Shown here: positions 17,483 through 40,200 of the stretch, in pieces
How the letters are laid out: each line of letters opens with the position of its first letter
Position numbering within the stretch: the first letter of the stretch is position 1
Origin: an uncultured Synergistaceae bacterium
GTDB lineage: Bacteria; Synergistota; Synergistia; Synergistales; Aminobacteriaceae
Length of the DNA stretch: 40,387 nucleotides
NCBI GenBank assembly: GCA_937870605.1
Contig: CALMZW010000227.1
Location: forward strand, 1-40,387
Direction: 5' to 3'
Made by a program: the position numbers and the translations under genes
Notes under the pieces: generated by a model
Told to the model about the DNA's origin: nothing
The model's database searches: none
The model's input: only the letters and a program-made list of their open reading frames with translations

Positions 17483-18373
17483 TTAACGATGAGAGGCGCC
17501 TCCGGCCGCTTCCGAAAGGAAGTTCAGAAAAAAGGCGACGGCAAGAAGATCGGCGCTTCCCCCCGGGCTGATGTTCCGCTCGACGAAGAGGCGCATCGCC
17601 GCGGTCGTGAGGCCGCGCCCCTGCTCCGAGCATGTCCCTCCGGCCGCAAGGATGTCGGCGGCCGCCCCGCGCATCAGGCGAAGTCCGTCCGTTCCCGACC
17701 GGTGCAGGACGTTCGTGTCGTCCGAGTGTTGCATGATGACCAGAAGCGTGTCCGCTCCGGCGTCGCCGGGGGAGCGCCCCTCTCGCGCCGCGTTCCGGAG
17801 GAAGGGCAGGGCCCGGTTCACGACAGTCGGGAAGCCGCGCTCCGCTTCGCCCCGGATGCCCGTGACGCCGGTGCGGAGGTAGAGCCGTTCGCCGGCCGTC
17901 AGGGGCCGTTCCGGCGGCGCCTCCCGGAGGGATTCGAGTTCGCGCCGGACGACGCCTTCGACGATCCGGGACGCGAGCGCGGCGAGGCCTTCGGGCGAGA
18001 GCGGCTCGTTCCGGGCGGCGCGAAGGCCGGCCGCCGCGCAGATCAGCCCGAAGGAGAAGAGCAACCCCTTGTGCGTGTTCACGCCTCCGGTCGCCCGGAA
18101 CATCGCGCGCTCGGCACGCAGTCCGATCCGGCGGATGCGGGGAAGGAGGCTTCCGGGATCGGCCGCGCCATGGCGGAATCCCGCGCGCGCGAACAGCGCC
18201 ATCCACGGCGCGAGCGCCGCGGCGCTGTCGATGAAGGTGAAGCGCGTCATATCCCCGTGCGCTCCGGCGTCACAGGGGCCCACGAGTCCGGGCTTGGGGT
18301 GGACGGCGATCTCGTAGAGCATCGCCCGCAACGCACAGTCGCGGACCAGGGATTCGAGCCTGCGGCGTCTCAT
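17483..18373 (-). CDS. citG: Triphosphoribosyl-dephospho-CoA synthase (CitG)
   Basis: CALRAMLYEIAVHPKPGLVGPCDAGAHGDMTRFTFIDSAAAL, GVNTHKGLLFSFGLICAAAG, QHSDDTNVLHRSG; ATGA overlap with citX. Confidence 0.92.
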   Translation of the reverse strand: MRRRRLESLVRDCALRAMLYEIAVHPKPGLVGPCDAGAHGDMTRFTFIDSAAALAPWMALFARAGFRHGAADPGSLLPRIRRIGLRAERAMFRATGGVNTHKGLLFSFGLICAAAGLRAARNEPLSPEGLAALASRIVEGVVRRELESLREAPPERPLTAGERLYLRTGVTGIRGEAERGFPTVVNRALPFLRNAAREGRSPGDAGADTLLVIMQHSDDTNVLHRSGTDGLRLMRGAAADILAAGGTCSEQGRGLTTAAMRLFVERNISPGGSADLLAVAFFLNFLSEAAGGASHR

Positions 18374-18879
18374 GATCCGGGAGGCTGATCGAGCAGCGAA
18401 TCGATTGCGGCCAGAAGTTCGGAAAGCGGGTGCGTCCGCTCGCGCGCGCAGAGGCGCGCCGCGCGGACGCAGCACAGGCAGCGGCGTTCCGGAAGACCGA
18501 GCGCGGATCTGGAAACGGGGACTCCGTCCGCGTCGAGGACGTCGACGTCGAAACACCGCCCCCAGGGGTGGGAGTTTTCGAACTCCACCGCGAGCAGCTT
18601 CGCTTCATTTCCGCACAGCGACGTCGCGAGGTGCGCCTCCATTCCCGCCGCGCTTTCGAACGTTCCGGCATGCCGGGCGAGGGGATCGCGCCCCTTCCAG
18701 AAGACGGAGAGCGCGTCGAGGAACTCCCGGAAGGCGCGCGCGTATCGGGCGGATGTCTTGTCCGGTCCCGGGATGTTCATCGTCACCGAGACGATCGCGC
18801 CGCCGCACCGTTCGACGAGGGCGAGCCGCCGTCGTGTCCTCGCTTCCCGCGCGTCGAGAAGGACCGAAAACGCGTCCAT
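18370..18879 (-). CDS. citX: Apo-citrate lyase phosphoribosyl-dephospho-CoA transferase (CitX-like)
   Basis: MDAFSVLLDAREARTRRRLALVERCGGAIVSVTMNIPGPDKTS...ENSHPWGRCFDVDVLDADGVPVSRSALGLPERRCLCCVRAARLCARERTHPLSEL. Confidence 0.9.
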   Translation of the reverse strand: MDAFSVLLDAREARTRRRLALVERCGGAIVSVTMNIPGPDKTSARYARAFREFLDALSVFWKGRDPLARHAGTFESAAGMEAHLATSLCGNEAKLLAVEFENSHPWGRCFDVDVLDADGVPVSRSALGLPERRCLCCVRAARLCARERTHPLSELLAAIDSLLDQPPGS

Positions 18880-18884
18880 CGGCG

Positions 18885-19691
18885 TCAGTCGTCCTGCGGA
18901 CGGGGGAGCGTCGTCCCGTCGCCGAGTTCCGCTCCGAGCCGCAGCGAAATCGCGCGGGCGCTTTCGATCGCGGCCGGAACGAGTTCCGCGACCATGGACT
19001 CCGTGAAGCGCGGGATCGGCCCGGAGACGGTCAGACACGCGACGGGCATGTTGCTCGCGTCGAAGATCGGAACGGCGACGGAGGAGACGCCCTGTTCGCG
19101 CTCCGCGCTGCTCATCTCGTAGCCCCGTGTCCGGACGACGCGCAGGCGTTCCTCCACCTTCGCGGGGTCCACAAGCGTGTTGGGCGTCAGCGGCGTCGCG
19201 TCCTTCAGGATCGACGCGACGTCCTCCGGCTTCATGAAGGCCAGGAAGCAGCGTCCCGAGGCGCCCGCCCAGAGCGGGAACCGGTCGCCGAGTTTCGCGG
19301 ACCGCTTCAGGTTGTGGGAGCTTTCGAGCTGTTCGTAGCAGACGCGGATACGTCCCTCGCGGAGGTAGAGGTTCACCGTCTCGTTGAACCGGCGTCGGAG
19401 TTCTTCCATGTACGGAAGCGCGACGGTCCGCAACGCTCCGCTCCGCTTCGCGAGAGCCCCGAGATAGTAGCAGACGGACCCGAGCCGGAGCTGCCTCGAA
19501 TCCTCGTCCCTGTCGAGAAAGCCCGTTTCGACGAGCGCCGAAACGATCCGCGACGCCGTAGAGAGCGGCAGGGAGAGCTTCGCCGCAATCTCGGAGACGG
19601 AGAGCGCCGGCGCATACCAGGAAAAGCAGGTGAGGACCGAAAGCCCCTTCTTGAGAGCGGCTGTGCCCCCCTCGTGTTCGGATGATCGCAT
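18885..19691 (-). CDS. IclR family transcriptional regulator
   Basis: ALKKGLSVLTCFSWYAPALSVSEIAAKLSLPLSTASRIVSALVETGFLDRD (HTH_IclR) and GASGRCFLAFMKPEDVASIL (effector domain); adjacent to citX and divergent from the lyase operon. Confidence 0.92.
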   Translation of the reverse strand: MRSSEHEGGTAALKKGLSVLTCFSWYAPALSVSEIAAKLSLPLSTASRIVSALVETGFLDRDEDSRQLRLGSVCYYLGALAKRSGALRTVALPYMEELRRRFNETVNLYLREGRIRVCYEQLESSHNLKRSAKLGDRFPLWAGASGRCFLAFMKPEDVASILKDATPLTPNTLVDPAKVEERLRVVRTRGYEMSSAEREQGVSSVAVPIFDASNMPVACLTVSGPIPRFTESMVAELVPAAIESARAISLRLGAELGDGTTLPRPQDD

Positions 19692-19768: not shown

Positions 19769-19796
19769 TTGACAAGCCCAAAGGATCAGGTATCAT
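19769..19796 (+). promoter_or_regulatory. Predicted sigma-70-type promoter of the lyase/TRAP/citDEF operon
   Basis: TTGACA (19769-19774), 16-nt spacer, TATCAT (19791-19796). Confidence 0.6.
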
Positions 19797-19801
19797 AAAT
19801 A

Positions 19802-19838
19802 TACCACATATTGAAAATCACTTCCATATATTGGAAGT
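19802..19838. promoter_or_regulatory. Tandem putative IclR operators
   Basis: Box A TACCACATATTGAAA (19802-19816) and box B TTCCATATATTGGAA (19822-19836) match at 12/15 positions and are offset by exactly 20 bp. Box B lies in the perfect inverted repeat ACTTCCA-TATAT-TGGAAGT (19820-19838). Confidence 0.5.
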
Positions 19839-19855
19839 TGCCCAAGGAGGCTCCG

Positions 19856-20746
19856 ATGAAGAAAAGTACGATTCTCCGCAGGATCCTGAAGGAACGGCGT
19901 GCGATTCCCGCGCCCGGGGCGCACGATGTAATCTCCGCGAAGCTCATCGAACGCGCGGGGTTCGAGATCATCCAGGTCAGCGGGTTCGGCCTGGCCGCGA
20001 CGTATCTGGGGCTGCCGGACATGGCGTTCCTGTCGTCGACGGATATGCTGAATTTCACGCGCAACATCGTCGACGCCGTGTCGATTCCGGTCATGGGGGA
20101 CGCCGATACGGGGTTCGGAAACAGCATCAACGCGATGCGCGTCACGGAGCAGTATATCAAGGCCGGAGCCGCGGGAATGAATATCGAAGACCAGATGTTT
20201 CCGAAACGTTGCGGGCATATCGAAGGCAAGACGATCGTGTCGATGGAGGAGATGGTCCTGAAGCTCCGCGCGTGCTGCAAGGTGCGCGACGAACTCGATC
20301 CCGACTTCATCATCAACGCGCGAACGGACGCGATCGCGGTCGAAGGCATCGGCGAGGCCATCCGGCGCGGCAACGCGTACGCCGAAGCCGGCGCCGACAT
20401 GATCTTCGTCGAGGCTCCCCGCTCGGTCGATGAGATCAACCGCGCCGTGAAGGAGATCAAGGCGCTCGTGAGCATCAACCTCTTCGACAACGTCGAGGGT
20501 GGAAAGACGCCGCTGGTTCCCGTGAAGGACCTCGCGGCCATGGGCGTCGCGCGCGTGAGCATCCCGGTCGGAACGACCTTCGCGGCGATGCGCGGCGTCG
20601 AGAAGTACCTCGAAGCCATCAAGGGCGGACAGCTCGCTCCCGGCCGGACCGATCTCGTCGCCACCTTCGCCGAGTTCAAGGATCTTGTCGGCGTGCCGAA
20701 GTTCCGGGAGCAGGAGAAGGAATTCCTGCCGAAGTTCGTCGAATAG
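19856..20746 (+). CDS. Isocitrate lyase/PEP mutase superfamily C-C lyase (2,3-dimethylmalate/methylisocitrate lyase- or oxaloacetate decarboxylase-like)
   Basis: MKKSTILRRILKERRAIPAPGAHDVISAKLIERAGFEIIQVSGFG; MGDADTGFGN; GAAGMNIEDQMFPKRCGHIEGK; INARTDA; GADMIFVEAP. RBS AAGGAGG. Confidence 0.88.
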   Translation: MKKSTILRRILKERRAIPAPGAHDVISAKLIERAGFEIIQVSGFGLAATYLGLPDMAFLSSTDMLNFTRNIVDAVSIPVMGDADTGFGNSINAMRVTEQYIKAGAAGMNIEDQMFPKRCGHIEGKTIVSMEEMVLKLRACCKVRDELDPDFIINARTDAIAVEGIGEAIRRGNAYAEAGADMIFVEAPRSVDEINRAVKEIKALVSINLFDNVEGGKTPLVPVKDLAAMGVARVSIPVGTTFAAMRGVEKYLEAIKGGQLAPGRTDLVATFAEFKDLVGVPKFREQEKEFLPKFVE

Positions 20747-20767
20747 ACGCGGAACGAGGGTGACGGC

Positions 20768-21658
20768 ATGAGCGGAGTTCTGGGCTTCATCGGTTTCGGC
20801 GAAGTCGCCTACCACATGTCCAAGGGGCTCAAGGGGGCCGGGTGGGGCGAGATCGTCGGGTTCGACGCCGCGCTTGCGAACGGCGGCGCCTACGCGGACA
20901 CGATCCGTTCCCGCGCGGCGGAAGCCGGGGCCGTCCTGTGCGGCTCGCTCGCCGACATGCTCGCCCGAGCCGACGTCGTTATCGCCGCGGTGCAGGCGAA
21001 GTTCGCGCCGCAGGCCGCGCGCGACGCGGCGCCGCTCATGCGGGCCGGGCAGTTTTACGTGGACGTCACGACGGCGAAACCCGCCTCGAAGCGCGACATG
21101 GAAGCGACGTTCGCGACGCGGGGAATCCGGTGCGTGGACGGAGCGATGCTCGGCCCCCTGCCGGTCAACGGGCACCGCGTGCCGATCCTCGCTTCCGGAG
21201 CGGCGGCGGCCGAATGGGCCGCGATAATGACCCCTTACGGCATGAAGATCGAGGTCATGGAGGGGCATGCGGGGGCGGCCTCAGCGATCAAGCTCGTCCG
21301 AAGCGTCTTCATGAAGGGACTCGAGGCGCTGTTCGTGGAGACGTTCCTGTTCGCGCGCCGGAGCGGGGCCGAGGATATCGTCCTCTCGTCGCTCGCCGAA
21401 ACCCTGAACGTTCCGTTCGAGAACACGGCGCAGCGGATGATCACGGCGGATCTCGTCCACGCGGAGCGGCGCGCGTTCGAAGTCGAGGAGTCCATCGGGC
21501 AGATGCGCGACATCGGCATCGAACCGATCATGGCCGAAGCGACCGTCCGGCGGCTCAAAAAGTCGGCTGCGCTCGGCACGCGCGAGGAACTTGGCGGCGT
21601 CGCGCCGAAGACGTTGGCGGACGTGTACGGGATCTGGCAGGAAAAGAAGTATTGCTGA
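20768..21658 (+). CDS. NAD(P)-dependent oxidoreductase, 6-phosphogluconate dehydrogenase-like N-domain with DUF1932-like C-domain
   Basis: LGFIGFGEVAYHMSKGLKGAG Rossmann motif; VDVTTAKPASKRDMEATFATRGIRCVDGAMLGPLP; GHAGAASAIKLVRSVFMKGLEALFVETFLFARRSG. Confidence 0.82.
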   Translation: MSGVLGFIGFGEVAYHMSKGLKGAGWGEIVGFDAALANGGAYADTIRSRAAEAGAVLCGSLADMLARADVVIAAVQAKFAPQAARDAAPLMRAGQFYVDVTTAKPASKRDMEATFATRGIRCVDGAMLGPLPVNGHRVPILASGAAAAEWAAIMTPYGMKIEVMEGHAGAASAIKLVRSVFMKGLEALFVETFLFARRSGAEDIVLSSLAETLNVPFENTAQRMITADLVHAERRAFEVEESIGQMRDIGIEPIMAEATVRRLKKSAALGTREELGGVAPKTLADVYGIWQEKKYC

Positions 21659-21722
21659 TCCCGTCGGAACGGGGCGTCCTCCGGCGATCGGGGAACGCGA
21701 CAGAGAAAGGAACGGGTGAACG

Positions 21723-22415
21723 ATGTCCGTAGGATTCCGTGTCTATATGAAACGAAACATGCCGCCGAGGGAGCTGGTCGAGGCGTTCCGTTCGATTCCG
21801 GCCGCGAATGTCGCGGACTGCATGGGGCGGCACTTCGCGATGCTTCCCGAGATTCGCCGGATGACGCTCCCCGGGGAGCTGAATATGGCCGGCGTCGCGC
21901 TGACCGTGAAGACGTGTTACGGCGACAACCTGATGATCCACCAGGCGTTCGACATGGCGGTCGAGGGGGATGTCGTGGTCGTCTCCAACGAGGGCGGGCG
22001 GAACCGTTCGCTGATGGGGGAGATCATGTTCGAGTACGCGAAGCGCAAGGGGATCGCCGGGATCGTTCTGGACGGCCCGCTTCGCGACGCGGGCGCCATC
22101 GCGGCCGGCGGCCTTCCCGTGTACGCGACCGGCTCGACGCCCGGCGGCCCGTACAAGGAGGGGCCGGGAGAGGTGAATGTTCCGGTCTCGTGCGGCGGAG
22201 TCGAGGTGCACCCCGGAGATATCATCGTCGGCGACGAGGACGGCGTCATCGTCATCCCCCGGCGCGACGCGGAACGCGTCTTGCGCGAGGCGCAGGCGTT
22301 CCAGAAGAGCGATACGGCGAAACTCCGGGCGGCGATCGACGGAACGGCCGACAGAAGCTGGGTTCGCAAGCAGCTCGACGCGAAGAAGTGCGAGTTTCTC
22401 GACGAGGCGTATTGA
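21723..22415 (+). CDS. RraA family protein (4-hydroxy-4-methyl-2-oxoglutarate/4-carboxy-4-hydroxy-2-oxoadipate aldolase-like)
   Basis: AANVADCMGRHFAMLPEIRRM; GDVVVVSNEGGRNRSLMGEIMFEYAKRKGIAGIVLDGPLRDAGAIAAGGLPVYATG; VHPGDIIVGDEDGVIVIPR. Confidence 0.9.
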   Translation: MSVGFRVYMKRNMPPRELVEAFRSIPAANVADCMGRHFAMLPEIRRMTLPGELNMAGVALTVKTCYGDNLMIHQAFDMAVEGDVVVVSNEGGRNRSLMGEIMFEYAKRKGIAGIVLDGPLRDAGAIAAGGLPVYATGSTPGGPYKEGPGEVNVPVSCGGVEVHPGDIIVGDEDGVIVIPRRDAERVLREAQAFQKSDTAKLRAAIDGTADRSWVRKQLDAKKCEFLDEAY

Positions 22416-22536
22416 TCCCGAAGCGTTTTGCACTGTGGTCTTCGGACTTCTTGCGTGTCGCCGGAAAGAGCGGATTTGTTTTTCCCCGGGTGCGGGGAGT
22501 GAAGCGGATGGAATCCAATTCAAGGGAGGGTGTGCA

Positions 22537-23490
22537 ATGAAGCGGAGTTGGGGAGCACTTGCGGTTGCGTTGGTTCTTGTTGTGGCGGCGGCGCCTGTTT
22601 TTGCGGCGGATGTGTTTGTCCGGATCGGAACGAGTACGGTGGGCGGCGGATTCTACCTGATCGGAAACACGATCGCGCAGCTCGGGACCGCGAAGATGAA
22701 GGAAATCAACTTCACGGCCGTGACCGGAGGATCGGTCAAGAACTGCATGAACCTCGGAACGAAGGATATGGAGCTCGGCATGGTGCAGTCGTCCACCGTG
22801 AACGACGCGTGGAACGGAACCGGCTCCTTCAAGGACAAGCCGATCAAGACGCTGCGCTATGTGACCGCGATTTATCCGATGCCCGCCCACATTCTCGTGA
22901 ACACCGACGCGGGGATCAAGAGCATCGCCGACTTCAAGGGCAAGAAGGTCGATTTCGGCTCCGTCGGACAGGGGATCGAGGTCAATACGCGCGAGTTCAT
23001 GTCCGTGTACGGACTCGCCGACGCCGACGTCACCGTCGAACGCTTCGGGCGCTCCGAGGTCGAGGAGGCGCTCAAGACGGGCGACTCCCAGGCCCACATC
23101 TGGACGACGAACGCGCCGAACGCGCAGGTTTCCGACATGATCCGCTCCGGCAAGGTCGGCCTGATTCCGATCGAGACCGCCAAAATCCACGAAATCGTCA
23201 TGAAGTTCCCGCACTATGCGCCGGCGGTCATCCCCGGGGGGACCTACCCCGGATACGACAAGGACGTCCAGGTCGTCGCGGCGATCGGCTCGCTGCTGAC
23301 CTACGAGGATATGCCCGAAGACGTCATCTACAAGATCACGAAGATGCTTCACGAAAACGTGCCGTTCCTTCGCGAGCGCCTGAATTACTTCTCGAACTTC
23401 GAACTCAAGACGGCGCTCGACGGCATGGCCGTTCCGCTGCACCCGGGCGCAAAGAAATACTACGTCGAAAAGGGACTTCTGAAGGAGTAA
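22537..23490 (+). CDS. TAXI family TRAP transporter solute-binding protein
   Basis: Signal peptide MKRSWGALAVALVLVVAAAPVFA; VRIGTSTVGGGFYLIGNTIAQL; FKGKKVDFGSVGQGIEVNTREFM; IPGGTYPGYDKDVQVVA. Confidence 0.9.
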   Translation: MKRSWGALAVALVLVVAAAPVFAADVFVRIGTSTVGGGFYLIGNTIAQLGTAKMKEINFTAVTGGSVKNCMNLGTKDMELGMVQSSTVNDAWNGTGSFKDKPIKTLRYVTAIYPMPAHILVNTDAGIKSIADFKGKKVDFGSVGQGIEVNTREFMSVYGLADADVTVERFGRSEVEEALKTGDSQAHIWTTNAPNAQVSDMIRSGKVGLIPIETAKIHEIVMKFPHYAPAVIPGGTYPGYDKDVQVVAAIGSLLTYEDMPEDVIYKITKMLHENVPFLRERLNYFSNFELKTALDGMAVPLHPGAKKYYVEKGLLKE

Positions 23491-23528
23491 CGGCCCGGGG
23501 TTCCAGTCCGGACGAAACGGAACGACGC

Positions 23529-23554
23529 CGGGGGAGGGGAAATCCCCTCCCCCG
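23529..23554 (+). promoter_or_regulatory. Intercistronic hairpin between the TAXI binding protein and the fused permease
   Basis: CGGGGGAGGGGA / TCCCCTCCCCCG near-perfect palindrome, 12-bp arms on paper around AA; weak T-content downstream (CTTTCTTG). Confidence 0.55.
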
Positions 23555-23581
23555 CTTTCTTGAAAAGGGAGGTTTCGGACC

Positions 23582-25504
23582 ATGGATCCAAACGATCTTC
23601 TTCTCGAAGAGGAAGACCAGAAGCCCGTCGCGGGGAAAAAGCGGTCATTGACCGGCCGGCTCGGGACGCTGATCACGGTGCTCACGGTGAGCCTCGCGGC
23701 CTTCCAGCTGTACACGGCTTTCTTCGGCCTGTTCCCGGCCATGCAGCAGCGCAGTCTCCACATGGCCTTCGTTCTGCCCCTCATCTTCCTCATCTATCCG
23801 ATGCGCACGTCGTCCCCGACGGCGCGTCCCTCGATTCCGGACTGGATTCTGGCGGCGATCGCGGCGGTCTGCACGCTCTACATCTATATGAACTATGAGG
23901 ACATCGCGAACCGCGCCGGAATGTACAAACCCTTCGAACTCTACCTCGGCGCGCTGATGATCTTCATCGTCTTCGAATCCGGGCGCCGCGTCCTCGGGTA
24001 CTCCCTGCCGATCTTCTGCGGCTTCTTCCTCTTCTTCGCCTACTTCGGGCGCTCCATGCCCGGACCGTTCCGCCATTTCGGGCTGTCGATCCCGAGGATC
24101 ATCGAGGAGCTCTACCTCACGACGGACGGGCTCTTCGGCCTCGTGACGGGCGTGTCGGCGACGTACATCTACCTGTTCATCCTGTTCGGCGCCTTCCTCG
24201 GGTCCACCGGGACCGCGAAGTTCTTCAACGACCTCGCGATGGCGCTGACCGGGCATCTCAAGGGCGGCCCCGCCAAGATCGCCGTCCTCTCGAGCGCCCT
24301 GATGGGCACGATCAGCGGAAGCACGTCGGCGAACGTCGCGACGACGGGGACGTTCACGATCCCGCTCATGAAGAAGATCGGATACCTGCCCCACTTCGCG
24401 GGCGCGGTCGAAGCGGCCGCCTCCACGGGGGGCCAGATCATGCCGCCGGTTCTCGGGGCTGCGGCCTTCATTATCGCCGACACGCTCGGGATCTCGTACC
24501 TCAAGGTGCTCGTGGCGTCCGTCGTTCCGGCGATCCTCTACTTCTTCGGGATCTGGTGCAGTTTGAGCCTCGAGGCGTCGAAGCTCGGCCTCAGGGGGCT
24601 CGACAAGAGCATGCTGCCGAAGGTGAAGGATGTCGTCCTGAAGAACGGGTACAAGTCCATCCCGCTCTTCGGGATCATCTATTTCCTCGTTCAGGGGTAC
24701 AATCCGCTCTACGCGGCGTGCTGGGGCATCATCCTCGCCGTGGTTCTGAGCTTCGTGCGCAAGGAAGACCGGATGGAGCCGAAGAAGTTCATCAAAACGC
24801 TCGAGGACGGCTCGAAGAGCGCCCTGTCCGTGGCGGTCGCGTGCTTCATCGTCGGCGTGGTCATCGGAATGATGGGCGCCACCGGCATCGCGCTGCGCGT
24901 CGGGGACGCGATCCTCACTATGACCCAGGGGAGCCTCGCGCTCACGCTGATCGCCACGATGCTTCTCGCCATCGCGCTCGGAATGGGAATGCCCACGACG
25001 GCGAGCTACGTCATGGCCAGCGCCGTGGGCGCGCCCGCGCTCATCCTTCTGGGCTGCAAGCCGCTCGACGTGCACTTCTTCGTCTTCTATTTCGCGGCGC
25101 TCTCGTCGATCACGCCGCCCGTATGCGTCGGCGCCTACACGGCCGCCGGAATCGCCGGAGCGGATCCCAACAGGACCGCATTCGCCTCGATACGGCTCGG
25201 GCTCGCGGGGTTCGTCATCCCGTTCGTGTTCATCTATTCACCCGAGCTGTTGCTGACGAACGTGACGAACTGGTTCTCGTTCGGCATCGCCGTAGTGACG
25301 GCGTGCGTCGGCGTCTTCTCCCTGGCCATCGCCACCGAGGGCTACGCGCTCGGGCCGGTCTCGCTTCCCCTGCGGCTCGTCGCGCTGGCCGCCGCGATCC
25401 TGCTGATCGTTCCGGGGATCGTTACGGACGCCGTCGGGATCGGACTTCTCGCGTTGGTTGTCGTTCTCAGTCGCCGCTCCGTGACAGCCGGAACGGGGCG
25501 CTGA
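23582..25504 (+). CDS. TRAP transporter fused permease (DctQM-type, TAXI-associated)
   Basis: 640 aa; HLKGGPAKIAVLSSALMGTISGSTSANVATTGTFTIPLMKKIGYLPHFAGAVEAAASTGGQIMPPVLGAAAFIIAD is a hallmark of fused TRAP permeases. Confidence 0.93.
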   Translation: MDPNDLLLEEEDQKPVAGKKRSLTGRLGTLITVLTVSLAAFQLYTAFFGLFPAMQQRSLHMAFVLPLIFLIYPMRTSSPTARPSIPDWILAAIAAVCTLYIYMNYEDIANRAGMYKPFELYLGALMIFIVFESGRRVLGYSLPIFCGFFLFFAYFGRSMPGPFRHFGLSIPRIIEELYLTTDGLFGLVTGVSATYIYLFILFGAFLGSTGTAKFFNDLAMALTGHLKGGPAKIAVLSSALMGTISGSTSANVATTGTFTIPLMKKIGYLPHFAGAVEAAASTGGQIMPPVLGAAAFIIADTLGISYLKVLVASVVPAILYFFGIWCSLSLEASKLGLRGLDKSMLPKVKDVVLKNGYKSIPLFGIIYFLVQGYNPLYAACWGIILAVVLSFVRKEDRMEPKKFIKTLEDGSKSALSVAVACFIVGVVIGMMGATGIALRVGDAILTMTQGSLALTLIATMLLAIALGMGMPTTASYVMASAVGAPALILLGCKPLDVHFFVFYFAALSSITPPVCVGAYTAAGIAGADPNRTAFASIRLGLAGFVIPFVFIYSPELLLTNVTNWFSFGIAVVTACVGVFSLAIATEGYALGPVSLPLRLVALAAAILLIVPGIVTDAVGIGLLALVVVLSRRSVTAGTGR

Positions 25505-25507
25505 CAC

Positions 25508-25840
25508 ATGAATTCCGGGCATGAAAACGCGGTTCCCGGCCGCGGCGTCGCAGGATCGTTCGAGTCCTGCGACGCGCTGGTGGTCGTGACGCTCCCACTT
25601 CCCCTGCCCGGAGGGGGGGCGAGCGCCTCCGGGGGAGTGTCGCTGCATCTTGAAAGCCCCTCCCTGGCGGTTTGCGGGGAGCGGATGCGGCGCGTGGCGC
25701 TGGAAACGCTGCGCGCTCTCGATGTGAACGACGCCGATGTGGCTATCAGCGACCGGGGAGCGCTCGACTGCACGCTGGCGGCCCGTGTCGAGACCGCGGT
25801 CCGGCGCGCCCGCGCTTCCGCGGAGGTGAACCGTCCGTGA
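25508..25840 (+). CDS. citD: Citrate lyase acyl carrier protein (gamma subunit)-like, divergent
   Basis: AGSFESCDALVVV (Ser attachment-site motif equivalent to AGTLESSD) and DRGALDCTLAARVETAVRRA; immediately upstream of citE. Confidence 0.82.
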   Translation: MNSGHENAVPGRGVAGSFESCDALVVVTLPLPLPGGGASASGGVSLHLESPSLAVCGERMRRVALETLRALDVNDADVAISDRGALDCTLAARVETAVRRARASAEVNRP

Positions 25841-26742
25841 CGACGACCCTGCGTCGCAGTTCGCTGTACGTTCCGGGAAACAACCCGTCGATGCTGATCA
25901 ATGCGGGAATCTACGGGGCCGACGTCCTCGTCTTCGACCTTGAGGACGCGGTGCCCTTCGCCGAGAAGGACGCCGCGCGCATCCTTCTCCGCAACGCGTT
26001 GTCGGCGGTCCGCTACGCTTCCGCCGAGGTAGTCGTCCGGATCAACTCGCTCTCGACGCCGTTCGGGCGGGAGGATCTCGACGTGATCGTCCCGCAGCGT
26101 CCGGACACGATCCGCATCCCGAAGTGCGAGACGGCGCGCGACGTGACGGACGTCGACCGGGCCGTCGGAGAGCTGGAGGCGGCGTCGGGGATCGAACGCG
26201 GCTCGATTCGCTTCATGCCGATCATCGAGACGGCGCTCGGCGCGTGGAACGTCATGGAGATCGCGACGGCGTGCCCGAGGGTCACGGCGTTGAACTTCGG
26301 CGCGGAGGATTACACGGCGGATATCGGCGCGATCCGCACGAAGGACGGGACGGAGCTTGCGGACCTGCGCGCTCGGATGCTTCTGGCCGCTCGCGTCGCG
26401 GGCGTTCAGGCGCTCGACTCGGTCTATTCCGATGTCGCGGACGACGACGGATTGTACGAGGAGTCCCGCCGGGCGCGGATCCTGGGGTTCGACGGCAAGT
26501 CGGTGATTCATCCGCGGCAGATTCCGGTCGTTCATCGGGCGTTCACGCCGTCGGAAAAGGAAATCGCGGCGGCGCTGCGCGTGGAGCGCGGACTCGCCGA
26601 GGGCAAAAGAATGGGCGTCGGCGTCGTCGTCGTCGACGGAAAGATGGTTGACGCCCCGGTGCTGAAGCGGGCGCGGAAGGTGCTCGAACTGGCCCGGGCG
26701 GCCGGAGCGCTTCCGAAAGAGGAGGAATCGTCATGCCGCTGA
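25837..26742 (+). CDS. citE: Citrate lyase beta subunit-like (CitE)
   Basis: GTG start overlapping the citD TGA; LRRSSLYVPGNNPSMLINAGIYGADVLVFDLEDAVPFAEKDAAR; RIPKCETARDV; IIETALGAWN; NFGAEDYTADIGA; GFDGKSVIHPRQIPVV. Confidence 0.93.
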   Translation: MTTTLRRSSLYVPGNNPSMLINAGIYGADVLVFDLEDAVPFAEKDAARILLRNALSAVRYASAEVVVRINSLSTPFGREDLDVIVPQRPDTIRIPKCETARDVTDVDRAVGELEAASGIERGSIRFMPIIETALGAWNVMEIATACPRVTALNFGAEDYTADIGAIRTKDGTELADLRARMLLAARVAGVQALDSVYSDVADDDGLYEESRRARILGFDGKSVIHPRQIPVVHRAFTPSEKEIAAALRVERGLAEGKRMGVGVVVVDGKMVDAPVLKRARKVLELARAAGALPKEEESSCR

Positions 26743-28277
26743 ACGGCGTGGGGCGGGACGTCCCGGACCGTATCCCGGGATATGGGGACGCGCGTCCCTT
26801 TTCGGCGGACGGAATCGCGGAAACGCCGCTGAGAGAGGCTCCGGAGACGGAGAGCGGCGCGGAAACGCGCGGGCGTTCCGTCGCGAAGGTCGTTCCGCTC
26901 GAACGGTCGCTCGACCTGCTCGACCTGCGCGACGGAATGACGATCTCGTTCCACCATCATCTCCGCGACGGGGACCTCGTCGTTTCGATGGTCCTCGACG
27001 CGCTGGCGCGCCGCGGCCTCAGGGGACTGACCCTCGCGCCGACGGCGCTCTTCCCGGTGCACGAGTCCATTCTGGCGCACGTCCGCGCGGGCGTGGTCGC
27101 GGGCATTCAGGGCAGCGTGAACGGTCCCGTCGGGCGGGCCGCGTCGGACGGGCTCTTCGACGGCCCCGTCGTGCTTCGGTCGCACGGGGGCAGGGCGCGC
27201 GCGGCCGCTTCGGGCGAACTTCCGGTCGACGTCGCGTTCATCGCGGCTCCGACCGCCGACCCCGAGGGCAACCTGAGCGGCCTGTCGGGGCCGTCCGCGT
27301 GCGGCTCGCTCGGCTACGCGCACACGGACGCGCGGTACGCGCGGCAGGTGGTCGCGCTGACCGACACCCTCGTCCCGTATCCGCTGCCGCGCGCGTCCAT
27401 CGACCAGAGCTGCGTGGACCTGGTCGTTCCGGTCGAGCGTCTGGGAATCCCGGAACGGATCGTCTCCGGGACGCTCGCGGTCACGAAGGATCCCTTGCGC
27501 CTCCTGATCGCCGAGCGCACGGCGCGCGTTCTGGACGCGTGCGGCGTGATCGCGCCGGGAATGTCGTTTCAGGCCGGGGCGGGCGGAATCTCGCTCGCGG
27601 CGACGGCCGCCGTGCGCGAACGCATGCGGGAGCGGAAGATCCGGGGGAGTTTCGCGTCGGGCGGCATCACGGGCGATCTCGTGGCAATGCACGAAGAGGG
27701 GCTCTTCGACGCGCTGCTCGACGTCCAGTCCTTCGATACGGAGGCGGTCCGCTCCCTTTCGCGGAATCCGGGGCACCGCGAGATGAGCGCGGCGATGTAC
27801 GCGTGTCCCTCGTCCCGCGGGTGCGTCGTCGACCGGCTCGACGCGGCGATCCTGGGAGCGACGCAGGTGGACGTCGACTTCAACGTGAACGTCAACACCG
27901 AGTCGGACGGCGTGCTGCTCCACGGCATCGGCGGGCACATGGACACGGCCGCCGGGGCCGGCGTGACCGTGATCGTGACGCCGCTGCTGCGCGGCAGGCT
28001 CCCGATGGTCGTCGACCGGGTCCTGACGGTCACGACGCCGGGATCGACCGTGGATGTGATCGTGACCGAGCGCGGCGTCGCCGTGAACCCGGCGAGGGCC
28101 GACCTGGCCGAAGCGCTCCGGAAGGCGCGACTGCCCCTTCGCGACATCGGCGATCTTCGCGACGACGCATACGCGCTGACGGGCGAGCCCGAAGCGCCGC
28201 GTTTCGGGGATCGGATCATCGGCGTCGTGGAGTATCGAGACGGAACGGTCATCGACGTGATCCGGAACGTTGTGTAG
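26733..28277 (+). CDS. citF: Citrate lyase alpha subunit-like (CitF)
   Basis: 514 aa; GMTISFHHHLRDGDLVVSMVLDALARRGLRGLTLAPTALFPVHE; GSVNGPVGRA; LPVDVAFIAAPTADPEGNLSGLSGPSACGSLGYAHTDA; GGISLAATAAVRERMRERKIRGSFASGGITG. Confidence 0.93.
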   Translation: MPLNGVGRDVPDRIPGYGDARPFSADGIAETPLREAPETESGAETRGRSVAKVVPLERSLDLLDLRDGMTISFHHHLRDGDLVVSMVLDALARRGLRGLTLAPTALFPVHESILAHVRAGVVAGIQGSVNGPVGRAASDGLFDGPVVLRSHGGRARAAASGELPVDVAFIAAPTADPEGNLSGLSGPSACGSLGYAHTDARYARQVVALTDTLVPYPLPRASIDQSCVDLVVPVERLGIPERIVSGTLAVTKDPLRLLIAERTARVLDACGVIAPGMSFQAGAGGISLAATAAVRERMRERKIRGSFASGGITGDLVAMHEEGLFDALLDVQSFDTEAVRSLSRNPGHREMSAAMYACPSSRGCVVDRLDAAILGATQVDVDFNVNVNTESDGVLLHGIGGHMDTAAGAGVTVIVTPLLRGRLPMVVDRVLTVTTPGSTVDVIVTERGVAVNPARADLAEALRKARLPLRDIGDLRDDAYALTGEPEAPRFGDRIIGVVEYRDGTVIDVIRNVV

Positions 28278-32065: not shown

Positions 32066-32332
32066 TTACCGGGGAGCGATTCCCCTCCCGACGGCCGTTT
32101 CGATGCGCGCGCGGAGCGTGCAGTCGAGCGCGCCGCGGTCGTCGATCCGGACGGTCGCGTTCGTGACGCCCTTCGTATTCAGTATCTCGCGGGCGGTCGC
32201 GCGCATGCGGTCGCCGAACTGTCGTTCGACCGGGCTCGTGACGGAGATCTCGATCCCGTCGGGATGCGGCCCGACCGTCACCATCGCGTCGCTCGATTCG
32301 AGCGATCCCGCGCTTGCCGTTCTGTCGATCAT
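32066..32332 (-). CDS. citD: Citrate lyase acyl carrier protein (gamma subunit)
   Basis: MIDRTASAGSLESSDAMVTVGPHPDGIEISVTSPVERQFGDRMRATAREILNTKGVTNATVRIDDRGALDCTLRARIETAVGRG: canonical CitD. Confidence 0.95.
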   Translation of the reverse strand: MIDRTASAGSLESSDAMVTVGPHPDGIEISVTSPVERQFGDRMRATAREILNTKGVTNATVRIDDRGALDCTLRARIETAVGRGIAPR

Positions 32333-32385
32333 CACTGGAATCCAACTCCTTTTCCTGGCGAATGGGTGTTCCCGGGAAGCGGGCG

Positions 32386-33471
32386 TCAGTGTCGCCCGGT
32401 CCCGAGCGCGATCCGTTTCCAGAGCGCCGCGCTTTCCGGGTCGCTCTCTTTCTTTCGTTCGATCGCGACGAGCGCGTCGTAGGTCGTCGCGGGGAGCAGC
32501 GCCCGCGTTTCCGCAAGCCGCCCCTCCCGGATGAGCCGCCGCACGCGCGACGCCGACACGGCCTCGCCGTCGCGTTCGACCCTCGGGATCTCCGTGACCC
32601 GGACGCCTCTGGGCGGCAAGACGCGCTTCAGGGCTTCGTTGTACGTCCTCGTGACGGGGCAGTAGGGCTCGGTTCCGACGAAGCGCTCCGTGACGCGAAG
32701 CGCGGGGGCGATCCGCTCGGCGAAGAGCGTCGCGTCGAGCGTCGCGTGGACCTGCGCCACGGCGTCGTCGCGCGTGAAGTACGACGGAAAGGTCCGCGAC
32801 GAGATGACGTACGGTCCCCCGCGAAGGACGGACACGTTCCCGAGGTCCGCCGTCCCGTCCCGAACGAGCGCAAAGCGCAGGTCGAACGGGAAAACCGAGC
32901 GGTCCTCCTCGACGACGAGGACGTAGAGATGCGGCGCGCGCGCGGCGGCCGTTTCGAGCAGATACCTGTGGCCGAGCGTGAACGGGTTCGCGTTGACGAC
33001 CGCAGCCCCCGCGCCGTCCGGCCGTCCGGCCGCCGCATCCGACAGCGCGGACAGAAACGGGGCGAGGCCGCCGCGTTCCCTCCCCGCGACGGACCACTCC
33101 AGGAGCGCGGCGTCGTCGGTCCGGGCGACGAGGTCGAACGAGAGCGCCTGAAAGACCGGAGCCGTCTCCGGCTTCGTGAACACGTACAGCTCCGTCTTTC
33201 CCTGCCGAAGCGCTTCTGTCACGAGCGCGGAGACGATCCGCGCGGCGATGCCTTCGTCGCGGCATTCGGGGAGCGCGCCGAGGCCCCGGATCGTCGCGCC
33301 GACCAGGGATCCCGTTCCGACGAGCCGCTCCGAGCCGTCGAAGACCCCCAGGATCCGATCGCCGTCGTCCGTCGCCGGAACGGAGAGGCCGAGGCGCGCA
33401 AGAAGCTCGCGCCGATCCCGACCCTCCGGTCCGGCGTCGCGGATCCATCGTTCCGTGAACGCAGCGAACAT
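32386..33471 (-). CDS. citC: [Citrate (pro-3S)-lyase] ligase (CitC)
   Basis: N-terminal GNAT-like half (LVGATIRGLGALPECRDEGIAARIVSALVTEALRQGKTELYVFTKPE) plus nucleotidyltransferase half (VVNANPFTLGHRYLLETAA...VSASRVRRLIREGR). Confidence 0.93.
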   Translation of the reverse strand: MFAAFTERWIRDAGPEGRDRRELLARLGLSVPATDDGDRILGVFDGSERLVGTGSLVGATIRGLGALPECRDEGIAARIVSALVTEALRQGKTELYVFTKPETAPVFQALSFDLVARTDDAALLEWSVAGRERGGLAPFLSALSDAAAGRPDGAGAAVVNANPFTLGHRYLLETAAARAPHLYVLVVEEDRSVFPFDLRFALVRDGTADLGNVSVLRGGPYVISSRTFPSYFTRDDAVAQVHATLDATLFAERIAPALRVTERFVGTEPYCPVTRTYNEALKRVLPPRGVRVTEIPRVERDGEAVSASRVRRLIREGRLAETRALLPATTYDALVAIERKKESDPESAALWKRIALGTGRH

Positions 33472-33502
33472 CGCTGTCGCCTCCTGCCGTGCTTTCCCGG
33501 CC

Positions 33503-35431
33503 TCAGCGCTTCGACGACGCCGCGAGGTTCAGCAGCCCGCCCGCGAGGAGAATGCCGCGTTCCCGTTCGGAGAGCGGGCAGAGCAGGCGCAGGCTTCGGC
33601 CGTCCGCTTCGGCTTGGGCGACGCCGCGTTCGAGCGCTTCCCGGACGCCGCGCAGGACGACACGGCTCGCGCCCTTCGGGGCGAAGATCGCGTAGTGCGA
33701 CGCGTCTTCGAACTGAAGCGGCAGGATGCCGAAGTTGATCAGGTTCTGCCGGTGGATTCGCGCGAAGGATTTCGCGATGACGGCCCGGACGCCGAGATAG
33801 CGCGGCGCGAGCGCCGCGTGCTCGCGGCTCGACCCCTGGCCGTAGTTGCCTCCGGCGACGATGACTCCCGCGCCCGATTCGCGCGCCCGCGCCGGGAAGG
33901 TCGGGTCGACGAGTTCGAAACAGTGTTTCGAGATCTCCGGGATGTTCGACCGGAGCGGCAGGATCTTCGCCCCCGCCGGCATGATGTGGTCGGTCGTGAT
34001 GTCGTCGCCGAGCACGAGAAGGACGTCCGCCGCGATGTCGTCGTCAAGGGGGGGGAAGACCGGCAGCGGCGCGATGTTCGGCCCCCTCGATATCTCCACG
34101 GAGCCGCCGTCTTCGGGCGGCGGAACGATCATCCGGTCGTCCGACGGGAGCGTGTCGGGCCACGCGGGTTTCGGATACGCCCCGAGCGTCCGCGGGTCGG
34201 TGATGCAGCCCCGAAGGGCCGACGCCGCGGCGGTTTCGGCGCTCGCGAGGTAGACGCGCGCGTCTTTCGTGCCCGTGCGCCCCTCGAAGTTCCGGTTCGA
34301 CGTCCGCAGGCTCGCGCCCCCCGACCGCGGGGCCTGACCGATGCCGACGCACGGGCCGCAGGCGCTTTCGAGGATCCGTGCGCCCGATTCCGCGAGATCG
34401 GCGAGTTCGCCGCCGCGCGAGAGCTGAACGACCGTCGAGCGCGACCCCGGAGCGATGCAGAGCGAGATGTTCGGCGGGACGACATGGCCCCTGAGGATCG
34501 CGGCGACGCGCGCCATGTCGAGGTACGATCCGTTCGTGCAGCTGCCGATGAAGACCTGGTCGAGCGGTGTCCCCGCGACCTCCCGGACCGGAACGACGGA
34601 GTCCGGGCTGTGGGGCAGCGCGACGAGCGGCTCCAGCGCGGCAAGATCGATGTCGACGGTTTCGTCGTAGGTCGCGTCCGGGTCGGCTTCCAGCGGAACG
34701 AAGTCGCGCTCCCTGCGGTGCATCTTCAGGAACGCACGGGTCTGCTCGTCGCTCGGAAAGACGGACGACGTCGCGCCGAGTTCGGCCCCCATGTTCGTGA
34801 TGGTTCCGCGCTCGTAGACCGAGAGCGTCGCGACGCCGGGGCCCGCGTATTCGAAGATCTTTCCGACGCCGCCGCTCGTCGAGAGCCGGCGCAGGAGTTC
34901 GAGAACGATGTCTTTCGCGGAGCACCAGGGCGGGAGCGATCCGGTCAGCAGCACCCGGACGATCCGGGGCATTCGGACGACGAACGGATGTCCGCCCATG
35001 GCCATCGCGACGTCGAGTCCGCCCGCGCCGATCGCGAGCATTCCGAGCCCGCCGCACGTCGGCGTGTGGCTGTCGGAGCCGAGGAGCGTCTTTCCGGGAA
35101 TCGCAAAACGCTCCAGATGCACGAAGTGGCAGATGCCGTTCCCGGCACGCGAGAGATACGCGCCGAACTTCGCGGCCGTCGTCGCGAGAAAGGCGTGGTC
35201 GTCCGCGTTCTCGTATCCCGTCTGGAGCGTGTTGTGATCCACGTAGCTCACGGAGCGCTCCGTCCGGACCCTCGGAACGCCCATCGCCTCGAACTCCAGG
35301 AAGGCCATGGTCCCGGTCGCGTCCTGGGTCAGCGTCTGATCGACGCGCAACGCTATCTCCGCGCCCGGTTCGCAGGGCGTCCCCGGCGCGCAGTGCGAGC
35401 GGATCAGCTTCTGTGCGCAATTTTCTCCCAC
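33503..35431 (-). CDS. Aconitate hydratase (fused, 'Aquifex-type' putative aconitase)
   Basis: VGENCAQKLIRSHCAPGTPCEPGAEIALRVDQTLTQDATGTMAFLEFEAMG; GSDSHTPTCGGLGMLAIGAGGLDVA; FIGSCTNGSYLDMA; SNRNFEGRTG; GGNYGQGSSREHAALAPRYLGVRAVIAKSFARIHRQNLINFGILPL. GTG start after AGAGAAGGGA. Confidence 0.92.
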   Translation of the reverse strand: MGENCAQKLIRSHCAPGTPCEPGAEIALRVDQTLTQDATGTMAFLEFEAMGVPRVRTERSVSYVDHNTLQTGYENADDHAFLATTAAKFGAYLSRAGNGICHFVHLERFAIPGKTLLGSDSHTPTCGGLGMLAIGAGGLDVAMAMGGHPFVVRMPRIVRVLLTGSLPPWCSAKDIVLELLRRLSTSGGVGKIFEYAGPGVATLSVYERGTITNMGAELGATSSVFPSDEQTRAFLKMHRRERDFVPLEADPDATYDETVDIDLAALEPLVALPHSPDSVVPVREVAGTPLDQVFIGSCTNGSYLDMARVAAILRGHVVPPNISLCIAPGSRSTVVQLSRGGELADLAESGARILESACGPCVGIGQAPRSGGASLRTSNRNFEGRTGTKDARVYLASAETAAASALRGCITDPRTLGAYPKPAWPDTLPSDDRMIVPPPEDGGSVEISRGPNIAPLPVFPPLDDDIAADVLLVLGDDITTDHIMPAGAKILPLRSNIPEISKHCFELVDPTFPARARESGAGVIVAGGNYGQGSSREHAALAPRYLGVRAVIAKSFARIHRQNLINFGILPLQFEDASHYAIFAPKGASRVVLRGVREALERGVAQAEADGRSLRLLCPLSERERGILLAGGLLNLAASSKR

Positions 35432-35496
35432 GGATGTCCCTTCTCTCTCTTTACAGAATAGTATGGCAAGGATTAGTATATCGCAGGAAGGCCTTT

Positions 35497-35513
35497 TTGG
35501 ATCATGGATCCAA
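35497..35513. promoter_or_regulatory. Putative GntR/FCD operator between the divergent aconitase and gntR genes
   Basis: Perfect inverted repeat TTGGATC-ATG-GATCCAA (7-bp arms). Confidence 0.45.
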
Positions 35514-35579
35514 GATCCAGTTGCAGATTTTTTGGGAGGTGCGACGCCCATCACGCCCTTTGCCGAAGACATACCCGTC

Positions 35580-36248
35580 ATGAAATCCTACCGGGAGGTG
35601 ATCTACGACTATCTCCGCAAGGCGATCATCAAGGGAGAGCTGCCGTCGGGGACGCAGATCACGGATTCCGACCTGGCCGAGCGCTTCGGCGTGAGCCGCA
35701 TGCCCGTGCGCGAAGCGCTCCGGAAGCTCGAGGCCGAGGGGCTCATCGAACGCAAGCCCGGCAAGGGAACCGTCGTGACCGGGATCACACGCGAGGAGAT
35801 CGCGCACATCTTCGCGATCCGGAAGGCGATCGAAGGTCTGGCGGTCCGGTACGCCGCGCGGAAGATCTCCGCGGACGAACTCGGGGCGTTGCGCGACGTG
35901 GTCCGGGAGGCCGCAGATATCCGGACGCGCCTTCCCGCGGATGCGCTCGCGGAGGCGCTGATCCCGCTCGCGGCCCGGTTCAACCGGATTCTCATCGACG
36001 CGTGCCGGATCCCGCGACTGATCGCCCTGATATGGACGCACCGGGATTACCTGCAGCAGTTCAGCGTGGTGCGCGTGATCATTTCGGCGCGCCTCTGGAA
36101 GAGCTTCGAAACGCGCGAACGGCTTCTCGGACTTCTCGAATCGGGGAACGAGGACGCCGCGTGCGCCCTCTGGCAGGAGCACCTCGACGCGTCGTTCCGG
36201 TCGTTTTTCGAGGCCATCGACATGGAACCCGGACAGGACTACGTCTGA
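35580..36248 (+). CDS. GntR family transcriptional regulator (FadR/FCD type)
   Basis: SYREVIYDYLRKAIIKGELPSGTQITDSDLAERFGVSRMPVREALRKLEAEGLIERKPGKGTVVTGITREEIAHIFAIRKAIEGLA. Confidence 0.92.
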   Translation: MKSYREVIYDYLRKAIIKGELPSGTQITDSDLAERFGVSRMPVREALRKLEAEGLIERKPGKGTVVTGITREEIAHIFAIRKAIEGLAVRYAARKISADELGALRDVVREAADIRTRLPADALAEALIPLAARFNRILIDACRIPRLIALIWTHRDYLQQFSVVRVIISARLWKSFETRERLLGLLESGNEDAACALWQEHLDASFRSFFEAIDMEPGQDYV

Positions 36249-36985
36249 TGTTCACAGCGACGTGGAGGGGAAACGCGTTTTTCGAGATCGCGGCGGGGGA
36301 TGTGCATCTGGCCGTTGACCCGTGGATCCGGGGGAACCCCGGGTGTTCGCTCCGGATGGACGAATTCCGGCCCGGGCGGCTGACCCATGTCTTCGTCACG
36401 CACGGTCACCCGGGGCACTGGGGACGCGGCGACTCGGCCGACATCGCCGCCGCTTGCGGCGTTCCGCTTTTTGCGCCCCGTCCGCTTGCGGAGCACATAC
36501 GGAAAACGCGAGATGCGAACGCCGATGTACGCGGGGTGGAGAACGGATGGTCGCTTTCGGGCGAAGGTTTTTCCGCGGAATTCCGCGTCTGCCCGCATCC
36601 GGAATCGCCGGATCTCCGGCCGGAAGACGCTGCGGTTCCGTCGGAGCCGAACGGGCTGTACCGCTTCACGCTGTATGGAAAGACCGTCGTGCATGTCGGC
36701 GACGGTCTGCCCGATCCCGTGTTCGATGACATCCGGAGGACGGGGGCGCGCGTGGACCTCGCCTGTCTTCCGCTCTGGGGAGCGGGGATGGCCGCCGGGA
36801 TGGAGGACGCCGTCGCGCGTCTGCTCCGGATCGTCGAAGCCCTTCGCCCGGCGCGCGTGGCGTGTCATAACCGCTTCGATCCCGCGCTTCGGGCGTGGAA
36901 CGCCGTGTGCGGCCGGTTCCGCCGGGAGTTTTCGGACGTCGAACTGCTTCCGCAGCGGCTCGACGAGGGCGTTGCGATTCGTTAA
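36248..36985 (+). CDS. Metallo-beta-lactamase-fold, UPF0173-like protein with altered HxHxDH motif
   Basis: FFEIAAGDVHLAVDPWIRGNPGC; HVFVTHGHPGHWG (normally THGHxDHxG); TVVHVGDGLPDPVFDDI; CLPLWGAGMAAGMEDAV; VACHNRF. TGATG overlap with gntR. Confidence 0.75.
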   Translation: MFTATWRGNAFFEIAAGDVHLAVDPWIRGNPGCSLRMDEFRPGRLTHVFVTHGHPGHWGRGDSADIAAACGVPLFAPRPLAEHIRKTRDANADVRGVENGWSLSGEGFSAEFRVCPHPESPDLRPEDAAVPSEPNGLYRFTLYGKTVVHVGDGLPDPVFDDIRRTGARVDLACLPLWGAGMAAGMEDAVARLLRIVEALRPARVACHNRFDPALRAWNAVCGRFRREFSDVELLPQRLDEGVAIR

Positions 36986-37036
36986 GGCGATCCGACACCC
37001 GGAGAGGGTGTCTATACGAAAGGGAGGGGTGCAGGA

Positions 37037-38014
37037 ATGAGAAAGGCTCTTGGAATCGGCGTTCTTCTGATGGTGGTTCTGTGCGGCGCGTCGCTCGCAC
37101 AGGCGGCTTGGGCTCCGGTGAGGCCCGTGGAGATCGTGGCTCCGGCGGGACCCGGCGGCGGATGGGATCTTCTGGCCCGGACGATGCAGAAAGTCCTGAC
37201 CGAAGAAAAAATCCTGAGCGTGCCCGTGCTCGTCACGAACAAGCCCGGCGGCGGCGGTGCGACCGGATGGACGTACCTCAAGAGCAAGAGGGGACAGGGC
37301 GAGTTCCTTGCGGTGACCTCCGCGCTCATCCTGCAGAACAACCTTCTCGGAAAGAGCGATCTGACATTCAAGGACTTTACGAACGTTGCGAACCTTCAGA
37401 CCGAATGGGAAGTCGTCGCAGTCGCCGGCGATGCTCCCTGGAAGACGGGCAAGGAATTCTTCGAGGCGCTGAAGAAGGATCCGTCGACGATGCCGATAGG
37501 CGTGGGCCCCGCGCTGGGAAATAACGATCATGTCCAGTTCCTGATGCTCGCGAAGGCCTATGGCGTGGATCCGACAAAGATCAAGTTCGTCGTCTACCCG
37601 AACACCGCAGCCGAACAGATTCCCGCCGTAATGGGAGGCCATATCAAGGCGATCACGATCAGCATGGCGGAAACGCTGGAGCAGCACAAGGCCGGAAAGA
37701 TCCGGCTCATCGGCATCAGCTCGCCCGAACGACATCCGCTGCTTCCCGATGTCGCCACCTGGAAAGAACAGGGGATCGACCACATATTCCCGCACTGGCG
37801 GGGTCTGATCGCGGCGCCCGGCATCACGGACGACATGAAGGCGTTCTGGAACGATGCGATCGCGAAGATGGTTGCGAGCAAAACGTGGAAGGAATCGCTC
37901 GCGAAGCTCGGCTGGGATCCGTACTACCTCAACGCCGCAGATGACGAAGCGTTCCTGGCCAAAACGAACGAGAGTTCGAAGGAACTCTTCAAGGCGGTCG
38001 GCCTCGTGAAATAG
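37037..38014 (+). CDS. tctC: Tripartite tricarboxylate transporter substrate-binding protein (TctC/Bug family)
   Basis: Signal peptide; RPVEIVAPAGPGGGWDLLARTMQKVLTEEKI; VTNKPGGGGATGWTYLK; GHIKAITISMAETLEQHKAGKIRLIGISSPERHPLLPDVATWKEQG. Confidence 0.92.
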   Translation: MRKALGIGVLLMVVLCGASLAQAAWAPVRPVEIVAPAGPGGGWDLLARTMQKVLTEEKILSVPVLVTNKPGGGGATGWTYLKSKRGQGEFLAVTSALILQNNLLGKSDLTFKDFTNVANLQTEWEVVAVAGDAPWKTGKEFFEALKKDPSTMPIGVGPALGNNDHVQFLMLAKAYGVDPTKIKFVVYPNTAAEQIPAVMGGHIKAITISMAETLEQHKAGKIRLIGISSPERHPLLPDVATWKEQGIDHIFPHWRGLIAAPGITDDMKAFWNDAIAKMVASKTWKESLAKLGWDPYYLNAADDEAFLAKTNESSKELFKAVGLVK

Positions 38015-38021
38015 AAACGGG

Positions 38022-38648: not shown

Positions 38649-38691
38649 GACAGACGCCCCGCGCTTCCGGATAGAGGAGGGATTCGTTTTT

Positions 38692-40188: not shown

Positions 40189-40200
40189 GGGGGAATGTGC

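Follow-up and report, generated by a model that had tools for sequence, protein, structure and literature searches.

Which acid is taken up and cleaved by an operon that combines a TAXI-TRAP importer, a lyase of the phosphoenolpyruvate (PEP) mutase/isocitrate lyase fold and the three subunits of a citrate lyase-type complex, and do all its enzymes belong to one pathway? The question is raised by a stretch of 40,387 nucleotides (the window), contig C227 of a 2.8-Mb metagenome-assembled genome of the Synergistota, in which eight co-directional genes span positions 19856–28277. They encode, in order, the lyase (PEPM), a DUF1932 oxidoreductase, an RraA-family protein, a TAXI solute-binding protein, a fused TRAP permease, and CitD, CitE and CitF. 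The named relatives of this lyase operon are Synergistota. The analysis leans, by a modest degree, to an IclR-controlled importer and lyase operon for a 2-hydroxy di- or tricarboxylic acid, in which CitDEF and the DUF1932–RraA pair are added modules. The enzymes are of known kinds; new are their combination and, in some relatives, a CitD devoid of the cofactor serine.

Relatives were located by an alignment search with PEPM; scanning the genomes with the DUF1932 protein alone gave no match. PEPM orthologues are 74–82% identical to the window lyase, and orthologous TAXI receptors reside in 23 of the 188 Synergistota genomes. The core is made by a divergent IclR gene, PEPM, the TAXI receptor and the fused TRAP permease, and DUF1932–RraA and CitDEF are optional modules. 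In 12 genomes, which represent 9 genera, CitDEF is part of the operon and directly follows the TRAP gene (G000, G002, G021, G039, G043, G017, G012, G016, G028, G014, G005, G061). In G017 the lyase lies on one contig and the TAXI-to-CitF part on another; the G031 operon ends within the TRAP gene, and in G004 CitDEF is found about 8 kb away. Since the gene order recurs in 9 genera, the arrangement is not due to chance. The link of CitDEF to lyase and importer, put forward in a preliminary description of this DNA, is thus borne out by gene order in relatives, in which three separate CitF lineages are involved. The same description viewed the four enzyme classes as one obligate pathway, which does not hold: DUF1932 and RraA are absent from operons L068, L070 and L189 and occur elsewhere on their own with TctCBA, and the core occurs without CitDEF in the four genomes whose surroundings were read (G065, G067, G074, G079). 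G135-type loci, in which TAXI-TRAP genes are near CitDEF, were not counted, as PEPM is missing and two genes intervene, presumably malic-enzyme-like and CitS-like, as named from their sequences.

CitF proteins of the core operons are sorted by tree into three lineages. A1 includes the window, L063, L126–L128 and L178. A2 (L041, L068, L070, L189) falls inside a CitDEF group tied to two LeuCD pairs and, in L173, an isocitrate dehydrogenase (IDH)-like gene, A3 (L043, L201) inside a TctC/aconitase group. A single CitF clade, for a group defined by gene context and not from the tree, is rejected (log-likelihood difference 480; approximately unbiased test, p = 2.4e-63). In contrast, the PEPMs of the CitDEF-joined operons form one clade (95/95), G061 excepted. 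Three CitF lineages against one lyase clade indicate that on three occasions or more CitDEF was either added to one and the same core or exchanged within it. This repeated joining argues for functional coupling of CitDEF with the core.

In the window, the genes are separated by 21, 64, 121, 91 and 3 bp, in gene order, and then overlap by 4 nucleotides (citD/citE, GTGA) and 10 nucleotides (citE/citF); their family matches are far above the Pfam curated cut-offs. The lyase start is set at ATG 19856, behind an AGGAGG ribosome-binding site, rather than at TTG 19811, as every orthologue begins with MK; the TAXI receptor start was placed at 22537. A putative sigma-70-like promoter (TTGACA-16-TATCAT, 19769–19796, forward strand), recognized by consensus match at 11 of 12 positions, is the sole forward site of this kind found; 0.8 sites are expected by chance on both strands at the looser threshold of 9/12. 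The opposite strand hosts a divergent IclR-family regulator (18885–19691; PF01614, PF09339), the orthologues of which adjoin the equivalent operon in most relatives, followed by citX, coding for the prosthetic-group transferase (18373–18921, start approximate; PF03802, 141.9 bits), and citG, coding for triphosphoribosyl-dephospho-CoA synthase (17483–18355, start approximate; PF01874, 265 bits; TIGR03125, 283 bits, above cut-off). Gene number and order, both overlaps, the single predicted promoter and the divergent IclR-citX-citG block had been described correctly; the label of divergent citDEF was wrong, as these genes run with the operon. A perfect 11-bp GC-rich hairpin is found at 23529–23554, between the TAXI and TRAP genes, a common location for hairpins, behind a highly expressed binding-protein gene; it is possibly an mRNA stabiliser or attenuator.

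PEPM (19856–20746, forward strand as the whole operon; PF13714, 185.7 bits) retains the PrpB lyase residues D58, D85, D87, E115, K121-R-C123-G-H125, R158, E188 and N210, that is, the K-[KR]-C-G-H motif and the catalytic Asp/Glu/Arg set of carbon-carbon lyases of the PEPM/isocitrate lyase superfamily, in a methylisocitrate-lyase-like active site. The position of PrpB P236 is occupied by Pro in all core-type lyases, and by Ser in the petal death protein (PDP). A Ser at this position we take to be the marker of oxaloacetate hydrolases, and core-type lyases do not carry it. Fold, KRCGH gating motif, metal and catalytic residues are common to PEPM, PrpB, 2,3-dimethylmalate lyase and the petal death protein; unlike the PrpB-type lyases, PEPM is distant in sequence, scores under every NCBIfam equivalog cut-off (PrpB, 240.2 against 354.4 bits), and is encoded in an operon lacking prpC and prpD.

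A close paralogue, PEPM2 (66–70% identical), resides beside LeuC/LeuD-type hydro-lyases. In Acetomicrobium, Thermovirga and others, PEPM2 is accompanied by LeuCD, TAXI-TRAP, two or three MmgE/PrpD proteins and DUF4387, the naming of PrpD and DUF4387 having been checked on L074 alone. The predicted genes of the cluster resemble the lower half of a methylcitrate cycle that lacks its synthase. MmgE/PrpD proteins, DUF4387, LeuCD, TAXI-TRAP and a PrpB-like lyase are clustered in L072–L079, L082 and L086. Several operons carry an additional module made by TctBA, a LeuC/LeuD-type hydro-lyase and TctC, with PEPM2 too in two of them (L037–L039).

The DUF1932 protein (20768–21658; PDB 3qsg) features the PF03446 and PF09130 domains and the conserved lysine of beta-hydroxyacid dehydrogenases. 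The RraA-family aldolase/decarboxylase (21723–22415; PF03737, 151.5 bits; NF004850 above cut-off) features the G[DE]-x20-R-D metal/catalytic motif of class II aldolases. It shares motif and fold with the HMG/CHA aldolase (LigK/ProA), and 3noj is its best solved match; it differs in scoring under the LigK/HMG-CHA equivalog cut-off (110 against 304.5 bits), and none of the aromatic-degradation genes was seen nearby. In L042, L044–L046 and L053 the DUF1932–RraA pair is found with TctC/TctA, as a separate module outside the core.

The importer consists of the TAXI solute-binding protein (22537–23490; PF16868, 256 bits; PDB 1us4, 8s4j) and the fused TRAP permease (23582–25504; TIGR02123, 679 bits, cut-off 320.65). 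The residues holding glutamate in the TAXI receptor VcGluP are known, E125 contacting the amino group (PMC11574862). All the aligned core-type receptors have the TAXI fold and keep S75 and Q93; unlike VcGluP, they feature Met in place of E125 and Phe in place of Y45, and thus lack the amino-group ligands of a glutamate receptor. These changes argue against an amino acid, and the predicted ligand is likely an acid without an amino group.

The citrate lyase genes of the window are adjacent and intact: citD (25508–25840; PF06857), coding for the acyl carrier subunit, in which alignment places the cofactor serine (ESCD), citE (25837–26742; PF03328), coding for the lyase subunit, and citF (26733–28277), coding for the acyl transferase subunit. 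CitF is above its equivalog cut-off (TIGR01584, 571.8 bits), CitD and CitE are under theirs (TIGR01588 for CitE, 339.3 against 443.4 bits). The D-E-F order, the adjacent CitX and CitG, the CitD serine and the near-invariant CitE and CitF residues are those of the citrate lyase (EC 4.1.3.6) of Klebsiella and lactic acid bacteria, which is matured by CitC, CitX and CitG, all encoded in the window genome. Differences reside in the low CitE score, and in the link of CitDEF to TAXI-TRAP and an isocitrate lyase-fold lyase rather than to a citrate carrier and oxaloacetate decarboxylase.

A second citrate-lyase locus, split by the contig end, is found at 32069–40387. It includes, on the reverse strand, citD2 (32069–32332), the sole copy of citC found in the genome, coding for citrate lyase ligase (32386–33471; PF08218, 219.4 bits), and an aconitase gene (33503–35446; NF005558, 899 bits, above cut-off); on the forward strand, a GntR/FCD regulator (35463–36248; PF00392, PF07729), the tricarboxylate transporter genes tctC, tctB and tctA (37037–40188; PF03401, PF07331, PF01970) and a truncated citE2 (40200–40387; PF03328). 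The remainder of citE2 and citF2 apparently lie on contig C335 (L061). The layout (aconitase, CitC, GntR, TctCBA, citEF) recurs in L171, L174, L179 and L193, with the CitF of which citF2 clusters, and marks this locus as the natural candidate for citrate use. A further pairing of a lyase with CitDEF is seen at L169 4804–7073, where a citrate-type operon has, between its TctA gene and citD, a gene for a distant PEPM-family lyase (39%). In L168, L173, L176, L177, L181, L185, L186, L188 and L196, GntR, two LeuC/LeuD pairs and CitDEF are clustered, with an IDH-like dehydrogenase in L173; such a cluster might convert 2-oxoglutarate to isocitrate, citrate, and then acetate plus oxaloacetate, a possible route of glutamate fermentation.

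In three relatives the CitD site carries Lys or Arg instead of serine: AGSDGKSDC in Aminobacterium colombiense (L043, G005), AGSSEKCDC in L201 (G061), AGTPERSDC in L070 (G014). The residue replaced is the prosthetic-group serine of citrate lyase (ES[SGMC]D; Ser14 in Klebsiella), with CitD of Klebsiella and of E. coli serving as references. It is retained in the other 9 operons of core type and in 64 other CitDs. A phylum-wide search gave one further serine-less CitD (Lys), in G178 (L264 9853–10104), where the locus has GntR and TctCA genes but no lyase core. In a quick tree the CitFs of G178, L043 and L201 form one clade and that of L070 stands apart; the serine thus appears to have been lost twice. 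At L070 9733–10935 the serine-less CitD is fused in frame to CitE. CitX, CitG and a real CitC were not found in G005 or G014, and core-operon CitDEF is the only CitDEF of G005, which is a single contig of 1,980,592 bp. A PF08218 match in G014 was rejected as CitC: it forms the C-terminal domain of a 648-aa protein (L202 1669–3615) whose N-terminal region differs and whose gene adjoins others resembling glycan-modification genes. The absence of CitC, CitX and CitG from drafts is weak evidence, since G024, fragmentary and contaminated, lacks all three and has a normal CitD. Lys-type CitDs do not look like decaying proteins, and sequence comparison points to purifying selection where testable: dN is 0.21 and dS 1.9 (nonsynonymous and synonymous divergence) between the L043 and L201 CitDs, and CitE and CitF of these operons retain nearly all near-invariant residues. 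A basic residue at CitE position 189 was dropped as a mark of CoA use, being found also in a serine-bearing relative.

Loss of the serine together with the missing CitC, CitX and CitG in two genomes suggests a carrier-free, perhaps CoA-based, CitDEF variant. The citramalyl-CoA lyases CLYBL and RipC, which are CitE-like and act on CoA thioesters, provide a model for it, though they are stand-alone enzymes and CitE of the operon belongs to the CitDEF complex. Two caveats apply: G061 and G178 carry CitX, which presumably serves another lyase, and L043 and L070 have a serine one position on from the lost site. It is tentatively entertained, as a possibility short of an even chance, that the operon serves a fermentation in which TAXI-TRAP imports an alkylated hydroxy di- or tricarboxylate cleaved by two unrelated lyases, and that in A. 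colombiense, G061 and G014 (as in G178, in another context) CitDEF devoid of a bound prosthetic group uses free CoA thioesters, CitD being only structural.

Genes, families, catalytic motifs and gene order, as the joinings and serine losses, were observed; the reactions, their order and the substrates are proposed from them. TAXI-TRAP would import a 2-hydroxy di- or tricarboxylic acid, probably alkyl-substituted, which PEPM would cleave in one step, in a retro-aldol/Claisen fashion modelled on methylisocitrate lyase or dimethylmalate lyase, to a 2-oxo acid (e.g. pyruvate) and a carboxylate. CitDEF, as an added module, would catalyse a second cleavage, that of a related acid requiring thioester activation, such as citramalate or a citrate homologue. 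According to the cycle known from citrate lyase (PMC10798043), CitF would exchange acetyl for the substrate acyl, and CitE would then yield the acetyl-carrier and a 2-oxo acid; the window CitDEF would employ the normal bound prosthetic group. DUF1932 and RraA would be optional, the hydroxy acid being oxidised, and the oxo acid then cleaved or decarboxylated. Some points weigh against this scheme. Substrate and activity of every operon member are predictions from sequence, and PEPM specificity is not fixed by it, since the protein is below all equivalog cut-offs; DUF1932–RraA and CitDEF, each being dispensable, may serve different substrates.

The operon could instead carry out ordinary citrate fermentation: citrate would enter through TAXI-TRAP and be split by CitDEF, and of the two products, acetate and oxaloacetate, the latter would be decarboxylated to pyruvate by RraA or PEPM. 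As RraA-type aldolases have oxaloacetate decarboxylase activity (PMC5065237), RraA could process the CitDEF product directly. The CitDEF set is moreover complete, with citX and citG alongside, the window CitD keeps the serine, and the A2 and A3 CitFs are sisters of those from aconitase/IDH or TctC loci. However, the same window holds the second locus, of conserved citrate-type layout; PEPM has the cysteine and proline of lyases rather than the serine presumed to mark oxaloacetate hydrolases; and the core occurs without CitDEF in the four genomes mentioned. A. colombiense, which has no other CitDEF and lacks CitC, CitX and CitG, does not use citrate, nor malate, fumarate or succinate, and grows poorly on 2-oxoglutarate (PMC3035294). 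Such negative growth tests, a further point to be set against the scheme preferred here, are compatible with co-metabolism or cryptic use. Citrate fermentation is on balance unlikely. The preliminary description had assigned CitDEF to a citrate analogue, and its exclusion of citrate is favoured by the second locus and by A. colombiense: the operon substrate is probably a 2-hydroxy acid related to citrate, and not citrate itself.

Citramalate, made by the methylaspartate route or imported, might be the CitDEF substrate, as CitE is under the citrate-lyase equivalog cut-off and the top PDB match of A. colombiense CitE is human CLYBL, which we take to be a citramalyl-CoA lyase. The glutamate mutase GlmE, however, was not found in the window genome, and is absent from all but 1 of the 101 genomes searched; the methylaspartate pathway was therefore rejected as very unlikely, and even with import allowed for, citramalate is a long shot. 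The operon might also be a mosaic, its organic-acid modules being unrelated and sharing one regulator but no pathway. The modules do occur apart (DUF1932–RraA with TctCBA, the core lacking CitDEF, CitDEF alongside aconitase or IDH), but on at least three occasions CitDEFs of different lineages were joined to the same core, each directly behind the TRAP gene; a mosaic is distinctly unlikely, less so than citramalate.

No description of this enzyme combination was found in the literature searched, a weak evidence of absence, since most subscription journals were outside its coverage. The importer and lyase operon favoured here suggests that strict anaerobes known chiefly for amino-acid fermentation occupy a carboxylic-acid niche not described so far. 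The serine-less CitD, which sets three relatives apart from citrate lyase, two of them having also lost the maturation genes, touches on the long-standing question of why a dedicated bound cofactor is required by citrate lyase at all, its subunits being relatives of CoA enzymes. The question is directly testable, since a cultured type strain, A. colombiense, has serine-less CitDEF as its only copy, and no CitC, CitX or CitG.

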